Shown: positions 8,304 to 19,755 of the stretch, one piece after another | Position numbering within the stretch: the stretch's first letter is position 1 | How the letters are laid out: the number at the start of each line of letters is the position of its first letter | Source: an uncultured Bacilli bacterium | Lineage (GTDB): Bacteria > Bacillota_I > Bacilli_A > RF39 > UBA660 | Assembly: GCA_948543905.1 (NCBI GenBank) | Contig: CAOVIS010000001.1 | Span: forward strand, 5,780-28,585 | DNA length: 22,806 nucleotides | Direction: 5' to 3' | Notes under the pieces: model-generated | Database searches by the model: none | The model's input: the letters and a program-made list of their open reading frames with translations, nothing else | What the model was told of the DNA's origin: nothing | Program-made: the position numbers and the translations under genes

Positions 8304-8379
8304 GCTGAAATAGCTCAGTCGGTAGAGCAACGCACTCGTAATGCGTAGGTCGCAGGTTCGATTCCTGTTTTCAGCACCA
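8304..8379 (+). tRNA. tRNA-Thr (anticodon CGU)
   Basis: A complete 76-nt cloverleaf: acceptor GCTGAAA / TTTCAGC, D arm GCTC / GAGC, anticodon stem ACGCA / TGCGT around loop CTCGTAA (anticodon CGT at 8337-8339), T arm GCAGG / CCTGT with TTCGATT, discriminator A and an encoded CCA. It reads ACG codons. It has its own promoter and stands alone. tRNA genes are common integration sites and accessory genes follow, but I found no second copy of its 3' end in the window. Confidence 0.97.
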
Positions 8380-8722: not shown

Positions 8723-10455
8723 ATGATAATTAATTATTCAGATAAACCGGTATTAAATCAATTTTTTTGGCAGGACCTACTCCTCGAAGCTTAGAAGTTG
8801 AAACATGGCGAAAAGAAGCAATTAGAATATTAAATGAGTTAGGATTTGATGGAATAGTTTATGTGCCAGAGTTAGAAGTGGATAATAGAACATTTAATTA
8901 TGATAATCAAGTTTGGTGGGAAAGAGAAGCATTATATAATGCTAATGTAATTATTTTTTGGATTCCTCGTTCTGCTCAATTACCAGCATTTACTACTAAT
9001 GTGGAATATGGCTATTGGATTGCTAAAAATAGTAATAAATGTTTATATGGAAGATCTGATGATTCCGAGAAGAATAGATATTTAGATTGGCTATATCAAA
9101 CAGAAACTGGTAAGAAGCCAATAAATAATTTAGAAGAATTGTTAAAAGATGCAATAAAACTAGCTAACGAAAATAAGAGTAAAACAGATATAGATAGCTA
9201 CGAATTAAATATAATAGCCAATATATTAAAAAAATATCCAGAAATAACTACACTTGTTGGAGATGTAGAATTTACTCCAGAGAGTTTTGGCGTAGATAGT
9301 GAAAATCCCACTTATGGCAAATTACTTTTTAAAGATGCTGAGTCTGATCAATTAAAAGAATTTGATAGAACTATACTTAGTGTTTTACTATATTTTTATA
9401 TCAAAGATAATAGATATGATAAATTTGTAGAGCAACAATCTGAAGATAATAGATTAACAAAAGAAACATTTAATGAACTTAGAGAACTTATATTAAATAA
9501 TTTTGATACACCTGAAAAAGAAAATTTATTATTATATTATGTAGTAATAAATGATTTGGGTAAAAGTCAAAGAATGGTAAATGCAATAAAGAGGCAAGGT
9601 ATTGAAACTGTAGATCATGATTTAATTCTAAACTATTTACTACAATATAATATGTTACCATCACTAAATGATTTTAGTGAAGAAAGCAAAAATAGTCTAG
9701 TCAATGTATTAACTAATGGTATTAATATGAGACAATTTATTCAAGGTGAATGTGTAGATTATAGTTTTAATAAATTACAGAATCTAACAACATTTGAAAA
9801 AATGCTAATGTCAACAGAAGCAATGCTTGATATTGGTGGAGTTTTAGGTCATATTAATAATCAAAATGGTAGTGCTGTATTGAATCAAACTACTGCTGAA
9901 AATTTTATAACCGCATCAAAAATATTATCGTCATGTGAAGATTGTACAAGAATATTTGATGAATTTTTAATTGATAAAGCCAATAAAATAGGCTTACAAA
10001 CACAAGATAATAGTATTAGAAAAGCAATTACAAGATTATGTTTAATGATGCGTTTAAACAATTCAAATGACATTAAAACTGTAGAAAATGAAATATTAGA
10101 AAATATGGAGCAGTATCAAACGTTAATTTATGAACTTAATCAAAGTGGATATAATAACCAACCAGCTATTCTATTATATTATTCTCCAGCTATGCTTAAC
10201 AATGCTTGTGGTTATTTTAAAAAGAATAATTCCAAAAATCCTATTATTGATTCTTTAAAAATTTGCTTATCATTTATGCAAAGTGTAATGCTAAATGCTA
10301 GAGAAAATATGAATAATCAGGGAAATGGAATTCTTACAATTATGCTTAGAGATGCTGCAATGGCTGTTGCAGAGGAACCTGCTCAATTAGATTCCTTTGA
10401 AGTAAATGTTTTAGGAAAAGATGAGGCACAAGTCCAAAAAAAACTGAAAAAATAG
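8723..10455 (+). CDS. Nucleoside 2-deoxyribosyltransferase-like domain fused to a large helical domain; start out of frame across a 7-T tract
   Basis: The body, open from 8767, begins with a nucleoside 2-deoxyribosyltransferase-like domain (about 1-115): LAGPTPRS, WRKEAIRILNELGFDG, WWEREALYNANVIIFWIPR and PAFTTNVEYG, which contains the family's likely catalytic Glu. The remaining 430 or so residues are not recognised; INDLGK (about 261-266) and DHDLIL resemble degenerate HD-domain motifs. The good start, ATG at 8723 with AAGGAGA, encodes MIINYSDKPVLNQFF but is one base out of frame with the body. The join falls exactly in seven Ts (8762-8768), where eight Ts would restore the reading frame. 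The TTG at 8767 has no Shine-Dalgarno. Possible explanations are phase variation, slippage, inactivation or a sequence error. Such domains act on nucleosides or NAD-like nucleotides, and a defence role is only a guess. Confidence 0.75.
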
Positions 10456-12016: not shown

Positions 12017-12661
12017 CTATAGAGTCATTGCCATTCGCATTTTCTCTAAGCTCTTTTTTTCATATCTCGAAACCATAACTTGTGTCATATTAAGTTTTCT
12101 AGCCACTTCACTTTGTGTTAAATCTTCATAATATCTACTTCTAATAATCTCTTGTTCCTCAGGATTTAAAACTTTAAAACTATCGTCTAAGTCCAGTCTT
12201 AAATCAATATTATTTTCTTTTTTATCAGGTATTACTTCATGTAAATTAAGTTCATTTGCCTCATCATCTAAAGATACCATACACTGAGCCATATTAACCG
12301 CTTCATAAATCTTATTAACATCTTGTTCTAAAAACAACGCCACTTCCTCTAAACTAGGCTCTCGCCCCATATTTAAAGCTAACTTATTTTTAGCCTGCAT
12401 TACTTCTCGATATATCTTTAATAAATCACGACTAACTTTAATACTTCTAGCACTATTTACTAAATTATACATCTCACCAAAAATATAAGTATAAGCATAA
12501 GTACTAAACTGCGTTTCTCCAGTATCTTTAAAATTTTTATAAGCATTTAATAAGCCAATTACTCCCACTTGCACTAAATCCTCTTTATCACAATTATAAA
12601 ATTTACTTGCTATTTTTTTAATAAGTCCCATATACTTTTCTATAAGTTCATTTGTTGTCAT
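12017..12661 (-). CDS. sigF: RNA polymerase sigma factor of the SigF/SigG (sporulation) type
   Basis: The 214 residues contain sigma-70 region 2 (DLVQVGVIGLLNAYKNF, FSTYAYTYIFGEMY, then SIKVSRDLL as in SigF/SigG region 2.4), region 3 (GREPSLEEVALFLEQD) and region 4 with its helix-turn-helix (LTQSEVARKLNMTQVMVSRYEKKSLEKMR). It is shorter than the 255-260 residues of Bacillus SigF/SigG, mainly at the N-terminus. Its ATG shares the A of the TAA of the upstream SpoIIAA-like gene, so translation is coupled. That partner is why I prefer SigF. The classical spoIIA operon has spoIIAB, the anti-sigma kinase, between the two; it is absent here, so how this factor is held inactive is unclear. SigB-type is the alternative. 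Confidence 0.8.
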   Translation of the reverse strand: MTTNELIEKYMGLIKKIASKFYNCDKEDLVQVGVIGLLNAYKNFKDTGETQFSTYAYTYIFGEMYNLVNSARSIKVSRDLLKIYREVMQAKNKLALNMGREPSLEEVALFLEQDVNKIYEAVNMAQCMVSLDDEANELNLHEVIPDKKENNIDLRLDLDDSFKVLNPEEQEIIRSRYYEDLTQSEVARKLNMTQVMVSRYEKKSLEKMRMAMTL

Positions 12662-12993
12662 TAGATATTTATTAACCTATTAGCTGCCAATTCATTAGAA
12701 GCCACTTTCATTCTAAGTCTTTTTATTTTAAGTCTAATATCATCACTTACTTCACACAAGCAAATTTTACCTTTATTAGTTCTAATTGCACATTTAGTAT
12801 TTAATAGTGCATCAAGTCCAGACTCATCAATATCCTTAAGTTCAAATAAATTAAACACTAAATATTTAATCTTATGCTTTAGAACAACTGGAACAATATA
12901 ATTGTTTATCTTATAACAAACCTTTCTATCCAAAACTCCCTTTAGTCTTACATATAAAATACCTTTCTCATATTCCATATCAACTTTTAACAT
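12661..12993 (-). CDS. spoIIAA: STAS-domain anti-anti-sigma factor, SpoIIAA-like
   Basis: SpoIIAA/RsbV proteins release sigma factors by binding the anti-sigma kinase when dephosphorylated. This 110-residue protein is a single STAS domain: strand YEKGILYVRLKGVLD, helix, YLVFNLFELKDIDESGLDALLNTK, and a C-terminal strand-helix. With the ATG at 12993 the phospho-acceptor serine of DESGLD falls at residue 58, the same number as Ser58 of Bacillus SpoIIAA. That ATG has AAGGTGAT just upstream; upstream GTG (13002) and ATG (12999) overlap that site. The partner kinase is missing from the operon. RsbV is the alternative name. Confidence 0.8.
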   Translation of the reverse strand: MLKVDMEYEKGILYVRLKGVLDRKVCYKINNYIVPVVLKHKIKYLVFNLFELKDIDESGLDALLNTKCAIRTNKGKICLCEVSDDIRLKIKRLRMKVASNELAANRLINI

Positions 12994-13035
12994 AATCATC
13001 ACCTTGCTACTCTAATATAGAACAAGTTTAATGAT

Positions 13036-15877: not shown

Positions 15878-16978
15878 TTAAACATTAAATCTAAAATAAA
15901 CAATATCTCCGTCTTGCATTAAATAATCTTTTCCTTCAAGCCTCAACTTACCAGCCTCTTTTACTTTTGCCTCACTCCCAAGAGCTTCCAAATCTGTAAA
16001 ACTAGTAACCTCAGCTTTAATAAACCCTCTTTCTATATCACTATGAATTAATCCTGCACAAGTCTTAGCGTTCATACCCTTTTTAAATGTCCATGCCCGG
16101 CACTCATCAGACCCACTAGTAAAAAATGTTGCAAGTCCAAGTAATTCATAAGTAGCAAATATCAACCTATCAAGCCCACTAGAACTAATTCCTAGTTCCT
16201 GCAAAAACACTTTTTTATCATCATCATTTAATTCAGCTAATTCTGACTCCATTTTTGCACTCATCACAATTACTCCACTGCCTTCTTTTTCAGCATACTC
16301 TCTAACCTTTTTAGTGTAATCATTATCGCCTAAAATAACATCATCCTCTGCAACATTTGCCGCATATATTAAAGGCTTTAAAGTAATAAAATTAAATGCT
16401 CGCATTAAAAGCAATTCATCTTCTTCAAAATCTACCAGCCTTAACGGTACACTAGCTTCTAAACTATTCTTAGCTTTCATCAAAACATTAACTTCCGCAA
16501 TCGCCTCTTTATCTTTAGTAGTTTCAGCTTTTTTAACAATTTTATTAAGTCTATTTTGGATAATTTCTAAATCAGCCAAAATAAGTTCCACATTAATAAT
16601 CTCAATATCTCTAATTGGGTCAGTAACACCCTCTACATGGGTAATATTAGCATCATCAAAACACCTTACCACTTCGACTATCGCATCAACTTCTCTTATA
16701 TGACTTAAAAATTTATTCCCCAGACCTTCACCTCTTGAAGCACCTTTAACTAAACCTGCAATATCCGTAAATTCGAAAGTTGTTGACACTACATTCTTTG
16801 GCATATACATCTCACTTAAAAAAGTCAGACGACTATCTGGTACTGTTACCATCCCAACATTAGGATCAATTGTTGCAAAAGGATAATTAGCAGCTAGAAT
16901 ATTTTGCTTTGTAATAGCATTAAAAAGAGTAGATTTTCCTACATTAGGAAGCCCCACAATTCCCGCTTTTAAACTCAT
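15878..16978 (-). CDS. ychF: Redox-regulated ATPase YchF (Obg-like)
   Basis: YchF/OLA1 is a ribosome-associated P-loop ATPase of the Obg family. The 366 residues are the standard length and contain G1 GIVGLPNVGKSTLFNA (about 7-22), G3 DIAGLVKGASRGEGLGNKFLSHIREVDA, and the altered G4 NVAE in place of NKxD that explains its preference for ATP. A coiled-coil section (DLEIIQNRLNKIVKKAETTK) and the C-terminal TGS domain (TCAGLIHSDIERGFIKAEV...GDIVYFRF) follow. ATG at 16978 follows AAGGAGG. In many Firmicutes ychF adjoins the DUF951, mscS and spo0J genes; here the retron and a transporter separate them. Confidence 0.97.
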   Translation of the reverse strand: MSLKAGIVGLPNVGKSTLFNAITKQNILAANYPFATIDPNVGMVTVPDSRLTFLSEMYMPKNVVSTTFEFTDIAGLVKGASRGEGLGNKFLSHIREVDAIVEVVRCFDDANITHVEGVTDPIRDIEIINVELILADLEIIQNRLNKIVKKAETTKDKEAIAEVNVLMKAKNSLEASVPLRLVDFEEDELLLMRAFNFITLKPLIYAANVAEDDVILGDNDYTKKVREYAEKEGSGVIVMSAKMESELAELNDDDKKVFLQELGISSSGLDRLIFATYELLGLATFFTSGSDECRAWTFKKGMNAKTCAGLIHSDIERGFIKAEVTSFTDLEALGSEAKVKEAGKLRLEGKDYLMQDGDIVYFRFNV

Positions 16979-17022: not shown

Positions 17023-17982
17023 TCATACTTTTATATCATTTAGATAATTATTTACCAATGTTAAATACTCTAAAAATTCTTTATTATGCCTCATAACATT
17101 TAAAACATAATTAATTTTCCCCTTTAAAGATTCCAAATATTTAATTTTATCACCATTATATTTTATATATTCTAAATGATTCCAAATCCCATATTTTTTT
17201 ATATAATAAATATCTTTCCGAATTTCCTGTCTATATATTTTAGGAATACTCACTTTTTCATTTACAACTAAACCTGTTACTACTTGCCTTTTAGCTTGTG
17301 TAATAATTTTTGTTTTTCCATGATTTAAATTAAAACCCATAACATTTAAAAAAGCTTCGACTTTATTTTTTAGTTTATAAGGATTAAAATCTCCTGAAAA
17401 AGTTAAATCATCCGCATACCTTGTATAATTAATATTTTGATCTCTAACATACTCTCCTATATAATTATCAAAAGATTTTAAAGCAAGATTAGAAAGCATA
17501 GGACTCGTTGGAGCCCCTTGAGGTAAATAATTATCATATAAACATAAATTAAGTAATAAAACTTTCATCTCTTTCGGAAAAATTTCACTAGGTAACACAT
17601 TATATAACATCTCAAAATTAATACTTGGAAAAAAATCTTTAATATCTAGCTTAAGAATAACTTTTGCTTTTTCATGAGGTTTAGCATTATAGATAAGTGA
17701 TTTATTTTTCATATAACTTTGTACATATTCTGAAGGTTTTAAACCATCTAAGACATTATGAAGTATTCTCTTTTGAATATTTTTAAGATAAACATTAGGA
17801 ACAAGCAGCTCTCTTTTTGTCCCATCCTTCTTTAATATATATTTTTTAGTGTAGTATTTTTTGGGGTTATTAGCTATACTATAAAGAATATTTAATTTTT
17901 CTGCATCGCTTAAATTTCCATCAATTAACCCAAGACTTAAAACAAAATCTTTATGATGCTCTTTTGTATAATACTTCCACAT
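17023..17982 (-). CDS. Retron reverse transcriptase
   Basis: The 319 residues form a compact reverse transcriptase. Visible motifs are the fingers region (YILKKDGTKRELLVPN, about 48-63), the retron-specific NAxxH (N99-A-K-P-H103), the first catalytic aspartate in KLDIKDFFPSI (D113), LPQGAPTSPMLSNLA (153-167), the active site YTRYADDLTFSGD (D191, D192) and the retron-specific VTG (235-237) before the thumb helices. NAxxH plus VTG separates retron enzymes from group II intron and DGR enzymes. Retron RTs bind the upstream msr-msd RNA and copy part of it into branched DNA, mostly for phage defence. ATG at 17982 follows AAAGGTGA, a few bases after the a2 repeat. There is no fused or adjacent effector gene. 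It is the only gene in the window stopping at TGA. Confidence 0.92.
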   Translation of the reverse strand: MWKYYTKEHHKDFVLSLGLIDGNLSDAEKLNILYSIANNPKKYYTKKYILKKDGTKRELLVPNVYLKNIQKRILHNVLDGLKPSEYVQSYMKNKSLIYNAKPHEKAKVILKLDIKDFFPSINFEMLYNVLPSEIFPKEMKVLLLNLCLYDNYLPQGAPTSPMLSNLALKSFDNYIGEYVRDQNINYTRYADDLTFSGDFNPYKLKNKVEAFLNVMGFNLNHGKTKIITQAKRQVVTGLVVNEKVSIPKIYRQEIRKDIYYIKKYGIWNHLEYIKYNGDKIKYLESLKGKINYVLNVMRHNKEFLEYLTLVNNYLNDIKV

Positions 17983-17997
17983 AAAATCACCTTTAAA

Positions 17998-18168
17998 AAA
18001 GCAGTACTTAAAAATTATCTTATTTAAGTGTCATGTACATTAGATAATTGAAAATTATCGAAAGCGTAAGCGACGGTACATAAACTAAATAAGCAAAATA
18101 ATATATCATTATTAAACCATAACGACTCGTTATAGCATCTACTAAAACATAGATAAAACTACTGCTTT
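17998..18168 (-). ncRNA. Retron msr-msd non-coding RNA
   Basis: A 171-nt region directly upstream of the reverse transcriptase is bounded by a perfect 9-bp inverted repeat: a1 AAAGCAGTA (18160-18168) and a2 TACTGCTTT (17998-18006). A G follows a1 immediately, the position of the priming 2'-OH guanosine. The msr part has three hairpins: ATCTA/TAGAT (18137-18154), ATAAC/GTTAT (18119-18133) and AATAAT/ATTATT (18097-18113). The msd part is one long stem, CTTATTTA/TAAATAAG (18086-18093 with 18019-18026) extended by ATGTAC/GTACAT (18076-18081 with 18033-18038), with an apical hairpin GATAATT/AATTATC (18043-18059). The exact reverse-transcription end cannot be read from the sequence. Confidence 0.85.
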
Positions 18169-18173
18169 AACGT

Positions 18174-18179
18174 ATTATA
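18174..18179 (-). promoter_or_regulatory. Extended -10 of the retron promoter
   Basis: A consensus TATAAT preceded by TG one base upstream places the start at about 18167, matching the a1 end. The -35 region falls within the upstream terminator and is weak. Confidence 0.65.
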
Positions 18180-18181
18180 AC

Positions 18182-18208
18182 AGAAAAAAAGAAACTTTAC
18201 TAGTCTCT
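18182..18208 (-). terminator. Terminator of the parAB-mscS-DUF951-AbgT operon
   Basis: AGAGACT agtaa AGTTTCT (one G-T pair) followed by seven Ts, beginning at the stop codon of the AbgT-type gene. It insulates the retron from the upstream operon. Confidence 0.75.
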
Positions 18209-19755
18209 TAAACATGAACAACTCCATTAATTCCAATTGGCAAACCTATAATATACCACACAATTAATAAAGCAAGTAAAATAAGTCCACAAACTACCGC
18301 ATAAGGCACTTGATATTTTAAAGTTTTAAAGAAATTAATTGGTTTTTTACTTTGATTATACCTCTCTAAATAAGCAAGATATATGACATAATAAGCCATT
18401 AAAGGTGTAAGTCCCATTGTCATTGACTCTCCAAATCTAAATATTACTTGTGTAAATTCTGGTGAAACTCCAATGTTCATTAAAGCTGGTACTGCAATAC
18501 TAGCCAGAATCGCCCATTTAAATGTTGAATTAGGAAGAAAGAAAGTAGCCACCGCACTTATTAAAAATAAAATAATAATAAGTGGGAAAGCTCCTAAATT
18601 AGCCGCAGTTAAAATATTAGCCAAAGCCGCAGTTATAACTTCGCCTATTCCTGTTTTCTTAAACACACTAATAAAAACAGATGCAAAGAATATAAGCACT
18701 ATAGTTTTCCCAATTCCATCAATGCTGTGCCCTAAATCATCACATAAGTCTTTGTTATTTCGAATAGTTTTAGCTCCTATTCCATAAAAGAAACCTAAAA
18801 TAACAAAAAGCATTGTTACTACAAAGACAAATCCATTACTAAAAAAAGAATCAGCACTAAATAATTTGTCAATATAAAACATTTGTGTTTTATCTAAAAG
18901 TGCGCCTGATAAGGGAAGTCCTGGAATAATACAATATATAAAAAATAATAAATATAAAATCCCTGCCCCACCTGCTAATACTAAACCTTTAAGTTCTCTA
19001 TTAGTAATAGTAAATTCCTCTTCCATTTCACTTTCCGGAAATTCATATTTTGGCATTTTAGGTGCAATATAATTCTCAGTAATTAAAGTAATAGCAAACG
19101 CTAGTAAAATTATAGCAATACTCATAATAATAATTAAACTCATTGTTGACAATTCATAATTAGCCATAATTAAATGTGCCCCTTGTAAAGTATTCGTAAG
19201 AAGAGCTGAATCAACACTTGTAAAAATTGCACTTACCCCTGTTCCAATTGTAAGCCCAGCATAAGAGGCAATAATCCCAATATAAGGATTTCTCTTCCCA
19301 TAAACAAAGATTAAAGCACTAAGAGGAATCATTACCACATAAGGTAAATTTCCCATAATACTACTAATCAAACATATTAAAACTAATACAAAAGTAACCA
19401 TTTTCTTTCGTGCTTTTTTAGTTAACAATGTAATAACGGTTTTTAAAAAACCACTTTTTTCCATTACTCCAATCCCTATTAATATAATAATAAGACTTGA
19501 AAGTGGTGTAAATGAAACAAAATTAGATACTGTTGTGGTAAAAATATACTTAAGTCCACTTAAACTAAACAAAGATTCCACTGAAGCTAAATTTTGCGTA
19601 TATTCAAGTGTCACATCATTACCAATTGTATTATAACTAACTTGAACTCCTAAAAGTGATAAAAAACCGCTTACTATAATCGTTATTACTATAAGAATTA
19701 TGAGGGTCATAATTGGGTCTAAAGTTATTCGTTCTTTAAGATTTCTCTTGTTCAT
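18208..19755 (-). CDS. AbgT-family transporter
   Basis: The 515 residues, with about a dozen hydrophobic segments, match the AbgT family (AbgT, MtrF, YdaH; about 500-510 aa), which moves p-aminobenzoyl-glutamate or exports sulfonamide-like compounds. Supporting blocks are the N-terminal LDPIMTLIILIVITIIVSGF, NFVSFTPLSSLIIILIGIGV and FLPNSTFKWAILASIAVPAL. A C-terminal cytoplasmic loop and two helices end the protein. Its start overlaps the end of the DUF951 gene by 20 bp, so translation is coupled, with AGGAGGACGTT just before the ATG at 19755. The substrate cannot be told from the sequence. A transporter at this point is unusual for the soj/spo0J neighbourhood. Confidence 0.88.
   Translation of the reverse strand: MNKRNLKERITLDPIMTLIILIVITIIVSGFLSLLGVQVSYNTIGNDVTLEYTQNLASVESLFSLSGLKYIFTTTVSNFVSFTPLSSLIIILIGIGVMEKSGFLKTVITLLTKKARKKMVTFVLVLICLISSIMGNLPYVVMIPLSALIFVYGKRNPYIGIIASYAGLTIGTGVSAIFTSVDSALLTNTLQGAHLIMANYELSTMSLIIIMSIAIILLAFAITLITENYIAPKMPKYEFPESEMEEEFTITNRELKGLVLAGGAGILYLLFFIYCIIPGLPLSGALLDKTQMFYIDKLFSADSFFSNGFVFVVTMLFVILGFFYGIGAKTIRNNKDLCDDLGHSIDGIGKTIVLIFFASVFISVFKKTGIGEVITAALANILTAANLGAFPLIIILFLISAVATFFLPNSTFKWAILASIAVPALMNIGVSPEFTQVIFRFGESMTMGLTPLMAYYVIYLAYLERYNQSKKPINFFKTLKYQVPYAVVCGLILLALLIVWYIIGLPIGINGVVHV

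Follow-up and report, generated by a model that had tools for sequence, protein, structure and literature searches.

A passage of PMC13405049 presents retrons as three-part systems that fall into sixteen subtypes defined by their effectors. Retron-Ec107 (Retron-Eco5) of E. coli, whose reverse transcriptase (RT) carries a YCDD motif, is described in part of PMC6868368 as standing between genes in place of a 34-bp palindrome, with no features of mobility. According to sections of PMC12548924, type III retrons carry a phosphoribosyltransferase beside the RT, and Retron-Bth1 of Bacillus thuringiensis makes RT-DNA.

The locus analysed here lies in a stretch of DNA of 22,806 nucleotides (the window). 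It is best explained as an Ec107-type (Retron-Eco5-type) chromosomal retron of an uncultured Bacilli-like lineage, consisting of a promoter, an RNA and an RT, with no linked effector (probability about 0.93). The preliminary description had proposed a retron that encodes its own msr-msd RNA and has no visible effector, which was upheld, and had suggested that it might be a new subtype, which was not. To our knowledge, no effector has been assigned to the Ec107 clade, and a literature search of one library, largely at the level of titles and abstract openings, returned nothing on Ec107-type retrons in uncultured Bacilli. A well-conserved, effector-less lineage of RNA plus RT contrasts with retrons as they are now described, namely as three-part defence systems.

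The locus resembles Retron-Ec107 in its best RT model and its RT clade (represented by the E. coli locus L186), in a leader that is found by the covariance model R1 (see below) and has the same hairpin tip and a G after a1, and in its chromosomal position between housekeeping genes (pyrE and slmA in L186) with no linked effector annotated. It differs in the AT-rich host, in YADD instead of YCDD, in the AbgT-ychF site, in shorter a1/a2 arms and in an unlike msd sequence. Retron-Bth1, compared by description only, is likewise a Bacilli retron without an obvious effector; however, it is extrachromosomal, its RT is interrupted by a group II intron, and that RT is unclassified.

Organization of the locus

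The retron and both of its neighbours are encoded on the minus strand, with the following features:

18208-19755, minus: upstream neighbour, AbgT-family transporter (Pfam PF03806; synteny)
18174-18179, minus: -10 box TATAAT (extended form TGTTATAAT), 5 nt ahead of a1
17998-18168, minus: msr-msd ncRNA, a1 to a2, 171 nt (covarying helices in alignments A2 and A3)
18160-18168, minus: a1 arm AAAGCAGTA, perfect 9-bp repeat with a2
18159, minus: G after a1, putative site of the 2'-5' branch, unchanged across all 27 rows of A2 (G10)
18116-18136, minus: msr hairpin with a CG-AGT-CG tip (GAGTC hairpin), helix 2 of A2
18019-18094, minus: msd, comprising an outer stem, an ATGTAC/GTACAT stem and an inner hairpin (helices 3 and 4 of A3); presumed extent of the copied DNA
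17998-18006, minus: a2 arm TACTGCTTT, perfect 9-bp repeat with a1
17023-17982, minus: retron RT, Ec107-like, 319 aa, ATG start, single RT domain
15878-16978, minus: downstream neighbour, which we take to be a ychF-type GTPase (sequence, synteny)

On the minus strand the elements follow one another in the order TATAAT, a1, G, hairpins, msd stem, a2, an RBS-like AAAGGTGAT and the ATG of the RT. The promoter, the perfect 9-bp repeat with its G, the msr hairpin and the msd stem that had been proposed upstream of the RT were all located, and they recur in relatives. The locus therefore has, at the level of sequence, what generally marks a retron: an upstream msr-msd RNA, an a1/a2 inverted repeat and a G after a1. 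The TG preceding TATAAT makes an extended -10; no TTGACA-like -35 for this TATAAT was found in a consensus scan. TATAAT was present in 11 of the 12 leaders at the AbgT-ychF site, with TATACT in the remaining one. A terminator-like hairpin, recognized by eye and absent from the pattern-scan list, follows the AbgT gene ahead of the retron promoter, and another TATAAT is present in the 45-bp gap between the RT and ychF.

The inverted repeat was compared with dinucleotide shuffles of the 336-nt upstream region. Arms of at least 9 bp spanning 130-220 nt arose in 39 of 300 shuffles, and arms of at least 9 bp plus the following G in 4 of 300. The 186-nt RNA folds better than its shuffles (z -3.15), with one of 200 equally stable. 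Since the repeat by itself is only moderately unlikely, it is conservation in related loci that counts.

By analogy with known retrons, a single transcript starting near a1 would carry the msr, the msd and the RT gene. The RT would bind the RNA closed by a1/a2 and prime synthesis from the 2'-OH of the G that follows a1, and the msd stem would be copied into a short DNA still joined to the msr RNA (msDNA), with trimming of the template RNA by RNase H. The transcription start, the branching, and the synthesis and length of msDNA are all modelled here on known retrons.

No Rfam family reached its gathering score in the window except tRNA; all other matches were weak and sub-threshold. This result is uninformative because the E. 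coli Ec107-type leader likewise has no Rfam match. A weak full-length match to RAGATH-17 (22.6 bits, E 0.89; gathering score 102.3) lies opposite the msd, at 18008-18103 on the plus strand, and is probably due to chance on an AT-rich hairpin.

Classification of the reverse transcriptase

In a family search of the 319-aa RT, Pfam RVT_1 (residues 49-238) was the sole family, and no extra or fused effector domain was detected with Pfam. The RT was aligned with homologues, 43 of 120 listed, from a search in which 7,988 of 7,997 scored candidate proteins passed E 0.001. Y189, D191, D192, H103, T236 and G237 were invariant among the 43, and N99 was conserved in at least 90% of them. NAxxH and the TG of VTG, whose motifs had been singled out as diagnostic of retrons, and the accompanying YADD are thus confirmed at these residues, and as a sequence the protein carries the general motifs of retron RTs. 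The dN/dS of the RT in six pairs was 0.12-0.30 (rough values, with dS above 1 in four pairs), which points to purifying selection. The RT evolves faster than its neighbour genes, as judged by branch lengths and dN.

Among the 65 PADLOC families that matched the window RT, the best model was RT_Ec107-like (377.6 bits, E 1.1e-113), which was also the best model for the RT of L186 (437.4 bits); the next best was RT_III-A (325.7 bits). The nearest NCBIfam model, retron_St85_RT, remained below its cut-off (214.7 versus 235). Matches to TIGR04416 (group II) and to DRT models were weak. The closest solved structure by sequence was the RT of Retron-Ec86 (Retron-Eco1; E 1.9e-34), which also resembles the window RT in fold (TM 0.72-0.75); it differs in having about 30% identity and in having been solved with an effector (title of 7v9x). 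An AlphaFold model of the RT, made from alignment A1, had a mean pLDDT of 95.4, and a PDB fold search with this model returned retron RT chains at ranks 1-18 and group II RTs from rank 19. With retron models far ahead and the top 18 folds being retron RTs, a group II intron, DGR or DRT enzyme was rejected. Grouping with group II, DGR or Abi enzymes, which would have spoken against a retron, was not seen in model scores or folds; the RT trees described next contained no typed RT of these three kinds and no Ec86 sequence.

Among 52 RTs placed in a tree, that of the window and that of L186 shared a 36-member clade (support 94). After addition of two III-A RTs and the RT of a phage-labelled scaffold (55 RTs), the Ec107-like clade had 37 members (support 92), most of them retrieved with the window's own RT family as the query. 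The III-A RTs (L188 and L189) fell outside it, one of them, that of L188, as the next branch (94). PADLOC typing of some of the outside RTs and of the added ones gave II-A for L081, XIII for L082, XI for L113, VI for L118 and III-A for L188 and L189. The phylogenetic placement called for in the preliminary description thus groups the window RT with an E. coli Ec107-type RT. Type III-A retrons come closest after that clade, in model score and in branching order, and differ in that L188 adjoins a phosphoribosyltransferase gene whereas the window has none. A new subtype was rejected in view of the RT_Ec107-like best model, the shared RT clade and the finding of the E. coli leader by the RNA model: both RT and leader RNA belong to the Ec107 (Retron-Eco5) kind.

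Conservation of the msr-msd RNA

Perfect arms of 8 bp or more, with a G immediately after them and GAGTC behind, were found in 56 of 82 loci (the window, 80 relatives and L186), in a leader scan that favoured the G and GAGTC motif. Covariation was examined in two alignments. In A2 (27 Bacilli leaders), 96.0% of cells were paired versus 77.5% in shuffles, double-sided changes occurred in 85 cells versus 22.8, and all five covariation measures exceeded all 500 shuffles. Helix 2, the msr hairpin, showed double-sided changes in 7 of its 8 pairs, with 98.1% of cells paired. In A3 (the 13 nearest leaders), the corresponding values were 95.0% versus 83.7% paired and 41 versus 13.4 cells with double-sided changes; four of the five measures beat all shuffles, and the fifth (further pair types) was reached by 70 of 500. 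The msd helices 3 and 4 of A3 had 94.9% and 89.3% of cells paired. No shuffle of 500 equalled the observed covariation score in either alignment, and sliding the partner by 1-3 columns lowered pairing to below 50% in both. It should be noted that the count for the a1/a2 helix is partly circular, the arms having been picked as inverted repeats; pairing played no part in the choice of the other helices. In related loci the arms, the G and the hairpin return with compensatory changes, which, as far as sequence comparison goes, settles the RNA as real. Lack of conservation of the a1/a2 arms and msd stem, the other outcome that would have counted against a retron, was not observed: the helices covary in A2 and A3.

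A covariance model, R1, was built from the 27 Bacilli leaders and run on 99 sources. The window leader, itself a training row, scored 97 bits. R1 found 15 of 15 held-out Bacilli-type loci (L101, L103-L112, L137, L138, L163 and L164), some of which are close kin of the training rows, and the E. coli Ec107-type leader (L186:2360-2537, E 7e-4), which contains ggcgagtcgct; L019 was found at E 1.2e-3. None of 29 controls (13 viral RT loci, 7 other RT loci and 9 retron-free gaps) matched at E up to 1, the best control match being at E 5.7. There was also no match in L126, a decayed Ec107-like RT fragment outside the controls. The covariance search proposed at the outset thus recovered held-out Bacilli loci and an E. 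coli leader, with clean controls.

Of 52 other RT loci, R1 matched 9 with an E cut-off of 0.01 and 15 with a cut-off of 1, always in the position immediately ahead of the RT. The remaining 37 of these loci of the RT clade were missed, so that RNA homology has been seen in only part of the clade. Those missed come, by record title, mainly from Lachnospiraceae and other Clostridia, and their leaders have a G+C of 40-63%, against 23-50% in the 15 matches. A later R1 search in a small search space gave E 3e-5 for L066, 0.007 for L032 and 0.0012 for L187, and, among III-A loci, 0.46 for L189 and 1 for L188. The many RNAs aligned here are added to the Ec107 kind and help to define its RNA structure.

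Occurrence of related RTs

Of 538 candidate stretches from a genome collection, 473 proved to be relatives; the best 80 were retained. By record title the nearest loci are Bacilli-like, consistent with the low-GC, uncultured Firmicute-type host first suspected. In the genus of genome G001, a strong RT match (E up to 1e-45) was present in 14 of 36 genomes and absent from 22, absences which may be overstated, the genomes being MAGs of unstated completeness. Across the wider family, strong matches (E up to 1e-60) were found in 16 of 145 genomes.

A phage or plasmid element was mostly dismissed, with L187 as the one exception. The viral collection held 16 RT relatives, the best with 34% identity. 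The plasmid matches (174 records) were all below 60%, the best-ranked, at 42%, being the III-A-typed L188 on a Vagococcus plasmid, and so were those in annotated phages (57 records), headed by L187; another of these was the III-A locus L189. L187 (MT838960.1) is an unverified, unannotated 4.7-kb faecal scaffold, a phage ("Bacteriophage sp.") by label only; its RT is RT_Ec107-like (384.7 bits), and its leader is the one matched by R1 at E 0.0012. In E. coli, 373 of 5,426 genomes gave a DNA match to the Ec107-type RT region, at one chromosomal place each; in the listed rows the matches span 28-29% of the query, and L186 was the single locus inspected.

Chromosomal site and descent

Eleven relatives (L001-L011) share the site of the window, with AbgT before and ychF after the retron, some with extra genes between. 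The same flanks were also found within several lineages among the relatives. The RT stop codon overlaps the start of ychF in L007, L009 and L010 and all but touches it in L008, which leaves no room for an effector gene between them. TATAAT occurs within the last 60 nt of the RT gene in L007, L008, L009 and L010; the ychF promoter may lie inside the RT gene in these loci.

In the 36 genus genomes, a retron occupied the AbgT-ychF site in 12 (the copy of G158 at a contig end), the gap was tight and empty (about 90-120 bp) in 8 and held other content in 10, including one retron with a broken RT; in 6 the site could not be judged, ychF being missing or on another contig. G170 and G173 carry a retron elsewhere in the genome and other content in the gap. 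The other gap content in the genus, judged by eye, comprised a lipoprotein-like gene, a 228-251-aa protein and, in G155, a transposase-like fragment. In G150, a lipoprotein-like gene is followed by a full-length leader match (116.6 bits) and an RT without most of its middle. The gap contents (lipoprotein-like genes, 228-251-aa family) gave no Rfam match. A natural retron remnant, with a full-length leader match and a large internal loss in the RT, was seen at L164:1402-1728, and the AbgT-ychF gap appeared as a turnover spot in L154, L155, L162, L164, L147, L149 and L157-L159. A shared site with presence, absence and decay among close relatives offers a natural comparison for the role of an effector-less retron.

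The RT tree was compared with a tree of AbgT plus YchF for 12 carriers. They shared 5 of 9 splits, a number reached by none of 2000 label permutations. The host data are compatible with the RT tree (p-AU 0.10), whereas the host tree is rejected by the RT data (p-AU 0.001). A strictly shared descent of the RT and the host genes was therefore rejected, and some exchange or tree error remains. In our reading, a single ancient insertion was followed by losses and by limited exchange.

Search for a linked effector

ORFs of at least 70 aa were called mechanically around the 80 loci. Within 800 nt, such an ORF was present upstream in 77 of 80 loci (63 families) and downstream in 77 of 80 (54 families); some overlap the leader on the opposite strand and are surely not genes, the true nearest gene was missed in some loci, and the ORF of L045 was mostly masked. 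The largest groups reflected lineage synteny. The neighbour ORFs examined numbered 118, namely 117 family representatives below 1,000 aa and one further gene; no Pfam or PADLOC family was found in more than two of them. Known-defence models matched scattered neighbours: mad8 (2 of 118), HTH_VI of type VI retrons (2 of 118; one of them a 76-aa HTH ORF of L078 on the opposite strand, 34.2 bits) and SspH (1 of 118). With a single-domain RT, AbgT and ychF as flanks and no recurrent partner, the earlier impression that no effector is visible was borne out, and the linked or fused effector of tripartite retron defence is lacking from the locus as sequenced. The phosphoribosyltransferase-like and DNA-binding partners of type III-A were not found either: the window and its 11 site relatives have AbgT, ychF or variable cargo, the latter only partly scanned by family.

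A candidate effector acting in trans was also considered. Near tRNA-Thr (8304-8379), the window encodes a 562-aa protein (8767-10455, plus strand) with N-terminal Nuc_deoxyri_tr2 and DUF6829. This deoxyribosyltransferase-like protein found no support as a trans effector, with matches in only 2 of 36 genus genomes and only to its N-terminal part.

Possible functions

The retron may be a defence sensor whose effector is encoded elsewhere and kept quiet by msDNA until phage infection, a possibility that we hold at clearly less than even odds. Retrons are described in part of PMC13405049 as acting in defence through an effector, and patchy presence among close relatives suits a defence gene. However, if a toxin stood elsewhere in the genome, losses of the retron should be costly, and the 8 genomes with a tight, empty site, if these are losses, together with the RNA kept beside a broken RT in G150, argue against a standing toxin; the narrow occurrence of the DUF6829 candidate also tells against this explanation. 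Loss of a trans effector before that of the retron would be compatible with the missing and broken copies.

Equally tentative is the proposal that there is no dedicated effector and that RT and msDNA act on a general host pathway such as ssDNA handling, repair or stress response. It would accord with the lack of a recurrent neighbour family in 80 loci, with the tightest loci, in which RT and ychF leave no space for a gene, with purifying selection on the RT and with the retention of the same flanks within several lineages. Expression of Retron-Ec107 is reported, in part of PMC6868368, to rise in starvation. Against it stands the dispensability of the retron suggested by the 22 genus genomes (MAGs of unstated completeness) without a strong match. 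A broader form of this proposal, in which Ec107-type retrons are an effector-free, mainly vertical chromosomal class whose msDNA works by direct action on a general host pathway instead of by restraining a toxin, seems rather doubtful; such a class may span enterobacteria, Lachnospiraceae and gut Bacilli.

It is unlikely that the retron is a near-neutral or selfish resident kept in place by its linkage to the flanking housekeeping genes. The RT has a higher rate of evolution than its neighbours, decays (G150) and is patchy, and the AbgT-ychF gap accepts other cargo as well, but dN/dS is well below 1, the RNA shows compensatory changes, and a transposase-like fragment was seen, by eye, only in one retron-free gap (G155). 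Finally, that the locus is no retron at all, its RT being a group II intron, DGR or Abi/DRT enzyme with a chance upstream repeat, is highly improbable, since the shared RT domain and the weak TIGR04416 and DRT matches are set against far stronger retron models, retron RTs as the first 18 PDB folds and a covarying leader RNA.

Elsewhere in the window, at 12017-13002 on the minus strand, a sigma-factor-like ORF adjoins an anti-sigma-antagonist-like ORF, as judged by eye from the translations.
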